From the NCBI RefSeq assembly GCF_000011005.1, contig NC_013665.1, positions 1,713,501 to 1,777,500 of the forward strand: a DNA stretch of 64,000 nt, read 5' to 3'. Positions within the stretch are counted from its first letter, which is position 1, and every line of letters starts with the position of its first letter. The translations under genes were made by a program, and so were the position numbers. A model generated the notes under the pieces. The model did no database searches and had not been told where the DNA came from. It saw only the letters and a program-made list of their open reading frames with translations. This DNA comes from Methanocella paludicola SANAE (GTDB lineage: Archaea; Halobacteriota; Methanocellia; Methanocellales; Methanocellaceae). Below, in pieces: positions 2,839 to 55,675 of the stretch.

Positions 2839-2888
2839 TTTGTATTTCATTGTTAGCGCCTTTCTTTGATTTGTTCGGTTTTATAAAA

Positions 2889-3434
2889 TGCGACTCACGT
2901 ACAGCCCTTCGGTTTCAGACACGAAGACACAAAACTTTTTTTTAAAGTTTTAACACAAAATCATGAAAGCACTGTAAACACAATTAAACCATGAAACCAT
3001 GAAGTCCCTATTAAGCGAATTAAGCCGCTAAAGCACGGTTATTAAGACACGAACGAATGACGTAAATCACGAAGTGCCACCAAATTAAGACAAAAAGGGA
3101 ACGCCAGCCCAGGTATCCATTAGTTGCCTATCGTTTTTAATATCGATCCAAAAATAGCCAGGCATCGCTCGCTATTATACTCGTTATTCTATTTGTCTTA
3201 TTTTTGTGGCACTTCGTGATTTACGTCGTTCGTTCGTGTCTTCGAAACCGTGGGCTGGGTGTTTTAATTCGCTTAATGGAGGCTTTGAGTTTTCATGGTT
3301 TAATAGTGTTTACAGTGTCTTCACGATTTAGTGTTCGTAAAATCTAAAAAAAAATTTTGGGTCTTCGTGTCCGAAACCGAACAAATCAGCGAAATGCACA
3401 AACTGTAAAACCGAGGGGCTGTACGTGAGTCGCA
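2889..3434. repeat. Long imperfect inverted repeat (LIR-1)
   Basis: This fills the gap between two convergent genes. A perfect 19-bp inverted pair closes it (2889-2907 with 3416-3434). Further paired blocks lie inside: CGGTTTCAGACACGAAGAC (from about 2910) against its near-complement at 3361-3379, and about 40 nt around 3045-3085 against about 3200-3243 with only a few mismatches. Arms are made of recurring words such as CACGAAG and CATGAAACC. No convincing coding frame is present; transcribed, it would form a very long hairpin. Confidence 0.85.
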
Positions 3435-3479
3435 GGCCATCATATCGAACAGATCAGTACAGTAAAAAATTAAAGAAAA

Positions 3480-16913: not shown

Positions 16914-17206
16914 ATTTTTCCCGCATTTTCCCGTTATGCCGTCTTAGGCGTGTCCTCAACCACAGAGGCGCAGAGCGCACGGAGTTCACAGAGTTTTTCT
17001 TAATAATTTGAGACACGGAGTAAGCGGAGCACGGTTTATTGACTTACCTGGGGCATAGGGATTATTGAGGCTCGGTTGACCAATAAACATTTAACCGGTT
17101 TATCCTCGCCAGTGCCTCTCAAATCTCTGTGCCCCAGGAAAGTATAAAACCATTCTCCGTGCCCTCTGAGCCTCCATCTTTAAAAAATCTCTGTCCGTAG
17201 TTCCGA

Positions 17207-18522
17207 GGTTGTTTTGTTAGGGGTTGTGGTGGTAGAATAAGTTTTAGTATTTAAGGGCGGGGGTGTAAGGGGCTTGTTGGTAAGAATGAAAACTCCTCAC
17301 AGTCCCCGCGTTTGTAGCGTTAGGCATGTTGATATAAATCTTTTCGCGCGCCGGTTCGCAAGCCTGTTTGATTTTCCCCGAAGCATGGGTTATGCAAGGT
17401 GTCTTGTTAACGCGTCCGTGAGAATGAAGAGCCTGGAATCTGTGTATAACAATTACGGGGGGCTCCCTCCGGACAGTTTCTTCCAGTTTTTCAAGTACTC
17501 CATGGACGATGTGATACGGGGAGCTGACTGGTTCTTCGAGTGTCAGGCCAAATTGGTGGACCTGCATGGCTGTGCTATTGCCATCGACTTGAACGATGTG
17601 GAGCACTGGGGAGTGGAGGACGAGTACGTGCACCCTAAAAAGGGCCTTAACAAGAACACGTACGTCCTCCGGTACGCCGTGGCCTCCCTTGTAGACGAGA
17701 GCCGCAAGCTCGCTCTGGCATGTATGCCCGTCACTACGAACGATAAACTCTCGGACATTGTACGAGTCCTCCTTGAAAAGACAATGAGCCATGTCCTGGT
17801 TGACGTCGTCCTGTTCGACCGGGGATTCTACAATGCCACCATCCTCAAAACCGTGGATGACTTGGGCATGCAATTCGTGATCCCCCTCAGGAAAAGCATG
17901 ACATCGGACAATGTCTGGGAGGAATCGAAAAAACGGGGAGAATACAAATTACGGTATACAGTAAAGGGCGAAACAGACCAGGTACGGGCATGGCTATACC
18001 TCGAAGAGAAAAAGAAAGAGAAAAAAGAGGATGGTAGAAAAGAAAAGGGCAAAAGAAAGGGACGGAACAAGAGCAAGAAGAAGCGAGAAAGGGAGTACGT
18101 GGGAGTGATCAGCAATATGGACGTGTGCCCGGAACTGGTCCAGAATTTCATGGACTGGTACTTCGTAAGGAACAACGTGGAAACAGGTTTTAAAGAGAAG
18201 AACCAGTACAAGATACGAACATGCAGCACCGACAAAGCCTACCGATACCTTATCTATTGCATCAGCCTTTACCTGATGAACCTCGTACAGGTCGTAAGAA
18301 TGGTTAACAACACCTTTTTCAGGAACGACGAGATGAAAAAACTCGTAAAACAATTACTGAGACTTGAAGGATCGCTGATAGGAGAGCACAGGCTCTCAAG
18401 AACCCTGATAGTGATTGCTTAGCGACAACCCGATAGCCCAAGCTATCAAAAAACATTGAAAAACCCCCGCTATTCAGCCAATTCTAACAATAACAACCAA
18501 CAAACCCCACAACAAAACAACC
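17207..18522 (+). mobile_element. Insertion sequence with single DDE transposase (ISH3-like)
   Basis: About 1316 bp bounded by imperfect terminal inverted repeats: left GGTTGTTTTGTTAGGGGTTG (17207 onward), right, read on the minus strand from 18522, GGTTGTTTTGTTGTGGGGTT. One transposase fills it. No clear target duplication was seen at the ends. It sits in non-coding inverted-repeat DNA between convergent genes, so no host gene is broken. Confidence 0.75.
17286..18422 (+). CDS. DDE transposase
   Basis: About 378 residues. Candidate catalytic acids are Asp in AIAIDLNDVEHWG (about residue 100), Asp in VVLFDRGFYNATI (about 179), and Glu in the C-terminal YFVRNNVETGFKEKN, a Y-x2-R-x3-E signature as in IS4-clan/ISH3 transposases. 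A highly basic Lys/Arg/Glu insert (about 240-275) is unusual and probably a surface loop. An ATG at 17286 is preferred to the TTG at 17274. The frame is intact, so the element may be active. Confidence 0.82.
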   Translation: MKTPHSPRVCSVRHVDINLFARRFASLFDFPRSMGYARCLVNASVRMKSLESVYNNYGGLPPDSFFQFFKYSMDDVIRGADWFFECQAKLVDLHGCAIAIDLNDVEHWGVEDEYVHPKKGLNKNTYVLRYAVASLVDESRKLALACMPVTTNDKLSDIVRVLLEKTMSHVLVDVVLFDRGFYNATILKTVDDLGMQFVIPLRKSMTSDNVWEESKKRGEYKLRYTVKGETDQVRAWLYLEEKKKEKKEDGRKEKGKRKGRNKSKKKREREYVGVISNMDVCPELVQNFMDWYFVRNNVETGFKEKNQYKIRTCSTDKAYRYLIYCISLYLMNLVQVVRMVNNTFFRNDEMKKLVKQLLRLEGSLIGEHRLSRTLIVIA

Positions 18523-18642
18523 ACTTAGATAACAGCCCAAAAAAGACCACATCGGAAGTACGGTCTGTGAAACTCTGAGCTCTCCGTGCCCCTGTGGTTG
18601 GACCACTCCGAGACGGCAGAGGTAAAAAGTAAATATAAAAAA

Positions 18643-25628: not shown

Positions 25629-26125
25629 GTTCGGTCGGTATCACGAACATCTCCAAAGGAAATAAACCACGAATTTTTCTTTTTAGATTTTTCTCACGAA
25701 GCCTCGAATGCTCTAGAACACCGTCAATGCCCGAACTCTCAAACACTCTGGGCAGTGCTCTAAGTCTCTAACGCGCTAACCCGAAAAGAAGGCTCTAAAG
25801 CTCGAATACACGTTCGAAACGCTAAACGATGGAGCACTAACACTCTAAGAGTCCGGTCATTCCCCAGAATTTTTGGGTGTTTGTGGCATTGGCGATTTAG
25901 CCGAGCTTTGGAGGGTTAGTGCTATGTCGTTTAGCGTTTCAAACGTGCATTCGAGCTTTAGAGCCTTCTTTTTGGGTTTGAGGCTTCGGGCGTTCGTGCA
26001 ATGCCCCGAGTATTAGAGAGTTCGGGCATTGACGGTGAGTTCGAGGCTTAGGGGTTTCGTGAGTAAAATCTAAAAGAAAAATTCGTGGTTTAATTCCTTT
26101 GGAGAGGTTCGAGATACCGACCGAA
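25629..26125. repeat. Long imperfect inverted repeat (LIR-3)
   Basis: Outer arms GTTCGGTCGGTATC (25629-25642) and GATACCGACCGAAC (26112-26125) are perfect complements, followed by near-complementary blocks: CTCCAAAGGAAATAAACCAC vs GTGGTTTAATTCCTTTGGAG, GCTCGAATACACGTTCGAAA vs its complement near 25950, and CACTAACACTCTAA in the centre. Arms of about 240 bp each with only scattered mismatches. Fills the 690-bp gap before eIF5A; no gene seen in it. Confidence 0.85.
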
Positions 26126-26317
26126 CTGATTTGCTAAGAGCCGCTGATAACGGCCCTGGGGGACCAGGCGGCACGAGGCCAGGCGGGATTAAGTATTTAT
26201 AAGGGTTGGGGAGTATAGTAGCTCAAGTTTGGCTTTGTGAAAATGAAATAAACACGCGCAGAGCCCTTAATATTCATGATGCGTTAACGAACGCTCGCTT
26301 AAGCGGAGGATAACACA

Positions 26318-31070: not shown

Positions 31071-31284
31071 GCGGGCCAACAATTTATTATTCTCTTTTCT
31101 GTCGTTAGCGTTAGCTTTTTATGCCGCTCTAAGCCGAATAAGCGATCCCGAAGACTTTTTAAGCACAAAGCCACTCGTAGCGTGCCGGAAGCTACTCAAA
31201 GATTATAATAAACTATAGCTATCTCCATTTTTTTAATGTTTGTTTTCCTTCGTGTAATATATGCCTGCTTAGATATCGTTTTCT

Positions 31285-31575
31285 CACCACAAAGTCACAA
31301 TGGCACAAAGGCTCACGGAGTTTATTTTAAATGTAAGTCACAAAGTTCACAAAGCCCGGTTCATTGGGTTATAAGGCACAAAGGGGACAATGGCACAATG
31401 GAATGAACATGCGAACACTTTTTGCCATCGTGCTATTGTCCCCTTTGTGCCTTATATATTCAAAAAGCATGCTCTGTGGGCTTAGTGACTTACATTTAAA
31501 AGAAAGCTTTGTGAAACTCTGTGACGTTGTGCCTTTGTGGTTCAAAACTGAGGGGAATGCACGTGAGTCGCACAC
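31285..31575. repeat. Long imperfect inverted repeat (LIR-4)
   Basis: Lies between convergent genes. Outer arms ACCACAAAGTCACAATGGCA and the complement around 31520-31540; middle arms TAAATGTAAGTCAC vs GTGACTTACATTTA; inner arms ATAAGGCACAAAGGGGACAA (31369 onward) against the complement ending about 31458. Words of CACAAAG type recur. ACGTGAGTCGCA at 31561-31572 also closes LIR-1. The rest of the gap 31071-31284 shows no gene. Confidence 0.82.
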
Positions 31576-31690
31576 ATTGAACAAGAAAATAGAATTAAAA
31601 ATATGGAGAAGAATTAAAAAATGCTTAGTGACGCTTTCAGACAGCTTTGAGAACTTTGAGCTGAAAACGTCTTCGTATAACTTATACTTT

Positions 31691-33001
<1,311 letters not shown>

Positions 33002-55513: not shown

Positions 55514-55675
55514 CTCGAAGACGTTTTTCAGCCTCAAAGACCTCAAAGCTGGCCTGAAGTAACTCGAAGACTAATTTAAAAAAGATGGGGCATCAATTAA
55601 AATTATTTTTAAAATTCTTAGAGTCACTTCAGGCCAGCTTCGAGTCGCTTCGTGGCTGAAACCGCCTTCGAGCAG
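55514..55675. repeat. Imperfect inverted repeat (LIR-5)
   Basis: AGCTGGCCTGAAGTAACTC (55547-55565) and its near-complement GAGTCACTTCAGGCCAGCT (55621-55639) pair over 18 of 19 positions, and flanking CTCGAAGACG...CAGCC pairs more weakly with GGCTGAAACCGCCTTCGAG. Shortest member of the family, 140 bp before leuS. Confidence 0.75.

Follow-up and report, generated by a model that had tools for sequence, protein, structure and literature searches.

Five intergenic gaps of a 64,000-nucleotide stretch of the Methanocella paludicola SANAE chromosome (contig NC_013665.1, positions 1,713,501 to 1,777,500; hereafter, the window) had been annotated as carrying long inverted repeats (LIR-1 to LIR-5), which raises the question of what such palindromes are and how they came to lie there. 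The best self-complementary alignment of each LIR was scored against 200 shuffles in which the dinucleotide composition was approximately kept. LIR-1 (307 bits; shuffle maximum, 36), LIR-3 (400 bits; maximum, 34), LIR-4 (161 bits; maximum, 45), and LIR-5 (77 bits; maximum, 28) all exceeded their shuffles and are real palindromes. This was not the case for LIR-2, which, minus its insert, does not pass by itself (43 bits, with a maximum of 48 in 200 shuffles), so that the initial annotation of five long inverted repeats holds by this test for four of them. The predicted RNA fold energy of LIR-2 is 5.8 SD under that of its shuffles, and most of the element can be aligned with unambiguous palindromes of its family at other sites in the genome; it is best read, from these alignments, as a member of a clear palindrome family that has decayed and been split by an IS. 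The split itself was confirmed, the two parts being separated by an insertion sequence of 1,316 bp that has terminal repeats of its own and encodes a DDE transposase. The coordinates first given for the other four LIRs proved nearly correct (Table 1), with weaker self-complementary matches widening LIR-4 to 31123-31700. The genome is a single contig of 2,957,635 bp, and its palindrome density was taken from 400 kb sampled at even spacing from the remaining sequence: 15 palindromes of at least 60 bits were found there, while 464 kb of shuffled DNA held no palindrome above 48 bits.

Table 1 Palindromes of the window and the modules associated with them (positions counted from the first letter of the window)
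Feature	Coordinates	Strand	Copies in genome
LIR-1, imperfect palindrome	2852..3456, core 2908-3381	.	~7 long copies
LIR-1 left end module A, GCGACTCACGTACAGCCC	2890..2907	+	
LIR-1 right end module A, inverted copy of 2890-2907	3416..3433	-	
End motif TTTGATTTGTTCGGT in LIR-1, common to LIR-3 family ends	2865..2879	+	
End motif GCTGATTTGTTCGGT (inverted) in LIR-1, common to LIR-3 family ends	3376..3390	-	
LIR-2 left part, decayed palindrome	16937..17206	.	family of >=41 copies
Insertion sequence within LIR-2, ends GGTTGTTTTGTTAGGGGTTGTGGTGGT / inverted; off palindrome centre	17207..18522	+	
DDE_Tnp_1 transposase ORF of the insertion sequence in LIR-2	17274..18422	+	
LIR-2 right part	18523..18618	.	
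LIR-3, 498-bp palindrome	25629..26126	.	family of about 39 copies
LIR-4 palindrome core, divergent family member	31286..31541	.	~27 copies, ~325 bp each
End module A right of LIR-4, GCGACTCACGTGCATTCC on minus strand	31554..31571	-	
LIR-5 palindrome	55514..55672	.	~27 copies, 170-200 bp

Genome searches, made with one query per family, placed every LIR in a dispersed family. The LIR-1 family has approximately 7 long copies, the LIR-2 family at least 41, and the LIR-3 family at least about 39, nearly all of which match on both strands and five of which are split by inserts; separate searches gave approximately 27 copies each for the LIR-4 and LIR-5 families. All five families consist of short non-coding elements in many copies, approximately 160-600 bp in length with arms of 80-270 bp. 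The core of the window's LIR-4 shares 81-83% identity with its relatives, whereas its right end differs from theirs. The initial annotation had described the elements as different from one another, which is true between families, but many homologues of each LIR lie at other genomic sites; the first observation was thus correct, yet understated. Long palindromes are usually considered unstable. Despite this presumed instability, the five families together account for at least 140 copies and approximately 50 kb, or approximately 1.7%, of this archaeal genome, and the sister species have sets of their own.

Local inverted duplication and template switching at replication forks commonly give rise to palindromes, and the LIRs might each have been made in place by such events. 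This explanation is extremely unlikely, as the homologous copies of each family are spread over unlinked sites, numbering from several to tens, and the ends are fixed where examined. It is largely refuted for the LIR families, although it could still explain the first origin of each master palindrome.

Some of these palindromes lie within others. A LIR-3 copy near positions 1773-2324 of locus L072 (contig 1014500-1019000) is nested, onion-like, in a longer inverted repeat of at least approximately 60 bp on each side. A LIR-2-like palindrome (L098:15096-15522) is embedded in a different palindrome made of CGCGAAG words, and the outer palindrome at L084:5196-5417 resembles the latter.

The ends of the LIR-2 family bear the marks of transposition. 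Twenty-two copies are 93-98% identical, and the copies have fixed boundaries at the imperfect terminal repeats GGTTCTTGTGCGTTTTTGGGATGA / TCATCCCAAAACCGCGGAAGARTC. Exact direct repeats, 8 bp or longer, adjoin the element boundary in 12 of the 19 copies tested and occur anywhere in the flanks in 14 of the 19, compared with 21% of mismatched control pairs. These target duplications are 8 bp long and AT-rich (for example, AATTTAAC, AAATTTAT, and TAATTAAT). Together with the terminal repeats, they establish transposition for the LIR-2 family only: the same test found no excess of target duplications in the LIR-3, LIR-4, and LIR-5 families. Of the roles first suggested for the LIRs, that of replicating palindromic elements is therefore supported, both by the dispersed family to which every LIR belongs and by the terminal repeats and target duplications of LIR-2.

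At the ends of LIR-3, an 8-bp target duplication formed by CTGATTTG/CAAATCAG was considered and rejected, as the pair was direct in 11 of 39 copies and inverted in 12 of 39, and a permutation test gave no excess. The 8-bp motif itself, as CTGATTTG or CAAATCAG, adjoins LIR-3 ends in either orientation, as if flipped (for example, at loci L033, L038, and L059).

We also searched for a mover. No transposase carrying LIR ends was found in approximately 1.08 Mb of loci (overlaps included) of the 2.96-Mb genome. RAYT enzymes were dismissed as candidates, since PF01797 (TnpA/RAYT, Y1_Tnp) has no match in this genome, while four of ten other genomes searched do match. LIRs that bear a transposase were rejected as autonomous parents too, as they contain several unrelated transposases, each with its own ends inside the palindrome, and excision restores the palindrome.

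We consider it likely that the LIRs are non-autonomous, MITE/foldback-like mobile palindromes. They would be copied to new sites, would persist chiefly where promoters are left undisturbed, that is, in convergent gaps, and would afterwards decay, with no selection on base pairing apparent; the four families besides LIR-2 would also have been spread by a trans-acting enzyme. The homologous dispersed families, the transposition of LIR-2, the intergenic and convergent bias, the central insertions, and the lineage-specific presence of the elements all speak for these mobile palindromes. Against them stand the lack of target duplications in LIR-3, LIR-4, and LIR-5, the lack of a transposase with LIR ends in the loci examined, the absence of PF01797, and the absence of a shared neighbour gene beside the related palindromes of other phyla.

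Twelve insertions inside palindromes were found, and 11 of them lie at or near the centre, where rejoining the flanks restores the palindrome. Five of these central inserts derive from two related IS256-like elements, all five genomic copies of which are located in LIRs. The others are one further mutator-type element, one IS3-like element (rve), one 484-bp insert, and three LIR-2 copies within other palindromes. The distance from the insertion junction to the centre has a median of 6% and a maximum of 27% of the half-length (KS test, p = 4e-7, n = 11), the off-centre twelfth insertion, which is the insertion sequence in the LIR-2 of the window, being left out of this test. Such central clustering of independent insertions inside long palindromes (11/12) is a novel finding, and it amounts to a natural record of transposases meeting long palindromes in living cells. 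Two readings fit it equally. The tip of an extruded palindrome may be the preferred target, since a long palindrome extruded as a cruciform or hairpin would have an exposed tip that is bent or single-stranded; alternatively, a central insertion may stabilise the palindrome, so that centrally interrupted palindromes survive better. The 484-bp insert (contig 1634897-1635379, in locus L258) occupies the exact centre of a LIR-4 copy.

Three of the five LIRs of the window had been placed between convergent genes. Our open reading frame calls, which define genes throughout this analysis and do not draw on curated annotation, bear this out: LIR-1, LIR-2, and LIR-4 lie in convergent gaps, and LIR-3 and LIR-5 in tandem ones. 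Among the LIR-bearing gaps of the collected loci, 57 are convergent, 52 tandem, and 7 divergent, whereas 39 of 238 sampled LIR-free gaps are convergent and 60 of 238 divergent. Convergent gaps are thus enriched for LIRs (odds ratio 4.9, p = 3e-10), and divergent gaps are depleted of them (odds ratio 0.19, p = 5e-6). The orthologues of 19 LIR gaps were found in two sister genomes; about half of these are at most 180 bp long and palindrome-free, as expected of lineage-specific insertion. A palindrome of unrelated sequence occurs in 6 of the 19, compared with 1 of 37 orthologues of LIR-free gaps (p = 0.0045). When only convergent gaps are counted, these proportions become 3/9 and 1/4, and the positional association vanishes; a shared preference for this gene orientation may therefore explain where the sister palindromes lie.

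These observations bear on another proposed role, that of selected transcription barriers or bidirectional terminators, in which hairpins between convergent genes would block read-through and antisense RNA and the palindrome would be maintained while its sequence is free to change. The strong convergent enrichment is what such a role predicts, the unrelated palindromes in sister orthologues agree with it, and each genome examined repeats the same palindrome design. However, the enrichment also follows from selection against insertions in promoters, the sister association may be explained by orientation as described above, tandem gaps hold about half of the copies, roughly half of the orthologues in sister species are empty, and the arms of LIR-3 copies show no compensatory changes (see below). 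We regard selected barriers as unlikely.

The arms were examined for covariation in 34 correctly oriented LIR-3 copies, with column shuffling as the control. The mean pairwise identity of the copies is 0.846. The Watson-Crick fraction of the consensus pairs is 0.851 as observed and 0.850 after shuffling, and there are 69 double compensating changes, compared with 63.6 +- 5.7 after shuffling. The absence of covariation gives no sign of selection at the RNA level. The LIR-3 consensus is itself an imperfect palindrome, and the identity of the copies together with the absent covariation is the pattern expected if a single palindromic master was copied and the copies then decayed neutrally; to judge from the alignment, the LIR-3 copies seem to be heirs of one such master that have diverged without detectable selection for pairing.

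This leaves little room for the suggestion, made in the initial annotation, that the LIRs are substrates for RNA processing. If they were a source of structured or double-stranded RNA, they would be transcribed and the hairpin processed, and their predicted folds are indeed very stable (z of -4 to -16 relative to shuffles). Such folding is expected of any palindrome, and an Rfam search of the window returned only two tRNAs, with no match in the LIRs. Given also the lack of compensatory change in the 34 LIR-3 copies, the suggestion is unsupported, and an RNA source is very unlikely.

The families differ in their distribution along the chromosome. A Cdc6/Orc1 gene at 1.5 kb was taken to mark the main origin; a second, weaker match at 633 kb (contig 632679-632930) may represent another origin or belong to a mobile element. 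LIR-5 copies lie near the origin, with a median distance of 166 kb from coordinate 0 (Rayleigh p = 1e-5), although the single query behind this list itself lay near the origin, which can exaggerate the proximity. LIR-3 copies are distant from the origin (median, 1,004 kb; p = 2e-4), and the two families differ in their distance to the origin (p = 9e-7). LIR-2 is broadly spread, LIR-4 has no significant zonation, and a signal of local spreading is weakly visible for LIR-3 only. This family-specific zonation is not predicted for mobile palindromes. It would be accounted for if the LIRs were chromosome-organising sites, with different families marking different zones and binding an architectural or segregation protein; the repeated 7-bp words of fixed polarity described below do resemble protein-binding units. 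We nevertheless hold such sites to be quite improbable, as two families do not follow the zones, a regional subfamily could have biased copy lists built from one query per family, old local spreading would also yield zones, and the recent burst of LIR-2 transposition is unlike the behaviour of such sites.

How do mobile palindromes of this kind compare with known systems? Like MITEs, including those of the foldback type, LIRs are short, non-coding, high-copy, and intergenic, and the LIR-2 family has both terminal repeats and 8-bp target duplications. Unlike MITEs, in which short terminal repeats enclose a unique middle, a whole LIR is a single palindrome with arms of 80-270 bp; in addition, target duplications were not found in LIR-3, LIR-4, or LIR-5, nor was a parent insertion sequence found in the approximately 1.08 Mb examined. 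REP, BIME, and REPIN sequences are likewise dispersed extragenic palindromes that are hit by insertion sequences, and they are mobilised by RAYT transposases (PMC3116915, PMC2817692, PMC3733652). LIRs differ from them in length (160-600 bp, compared with 20-40 bp for a REP unit; PMC3733652) and in that their host genome lacks PF01797. The concentration of insertion sequences in LIRs recalls that reported for REP palindromic extragenic repeats (PMC1525189), but the LIR palindromes are much longer, and their centre is hit by several kinds of element (mutator/IS256-like, IS3-like rve, a LIR-2-type MITE, and the 484-bp insert).

Besides the central insertion hotspot, the most interesting part of this system is the recurrent inward grammar of its words. 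The 5' arm carries CACRRAG words that point inward: in the random genome sample together with the window, 83 such words are directed toward the palindrome centre and none outward, for a background expectation of approximately 1 per set of arms. These 7-bp words are repeated, mostly 8-10 bp apart, with fixed polarity. The palindromes of the two sister genomes have other sequences and an identical build, with inward and outward counts of 210 and 1 in one genome and 141 and 9 in the other. Among 295 genomes of the host phylum, 22 contain the degenerate word pattern and none contains the pattern read backward.

Palindromes with a similar word pattern also occur in many other bacteria and archaea. 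A search of representative genomes for an exact CACAGAG-word pattern with 23 fixed bases, ACCACAGAGNCACAGAGNNCACAGAG, gave 116 stretches or more. Those listed, 80 in number, of which 35 hold measurable palindromes, represent at least 15 phyla according to their record titles, isolates included, although some metagenome bins are possibly mis-assigned. In viral contigs, the exact pattern occurs in 68 stretches (L399-L466) and the backward control in none. Among the genes flanking related palindromes in other phyla, none recurred as a common neighbour. It should be noted that a limited literature search returned no relevant description of CACRRAG-type words, so that "undescribed" is not proven.

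The LIRs may, tentatively, exemplify a class of palindromic mobile DNA that spans domains and is defined by its grammar and not by its sequence, with arms of inward CACRRAG-like heptamers often 8-10 bp apart, renewed by trans-acting machinery, and with a centre that serves as a landing pad for other transposons. A binding protein common to these palindromes, or convergence in their build, could also account for the recurrent grammar. Because it recurs across at least 15 phyla, the grammar suggests a repeat type that is widespread and apparently still without a name, and whose mobilising enzyme can now be sought. In one of the sister genomes, a tandem array with a 35-bp period (G002:C1:108828-109028) contains CCACAGAGGCACAGAGGGACACAGAG.
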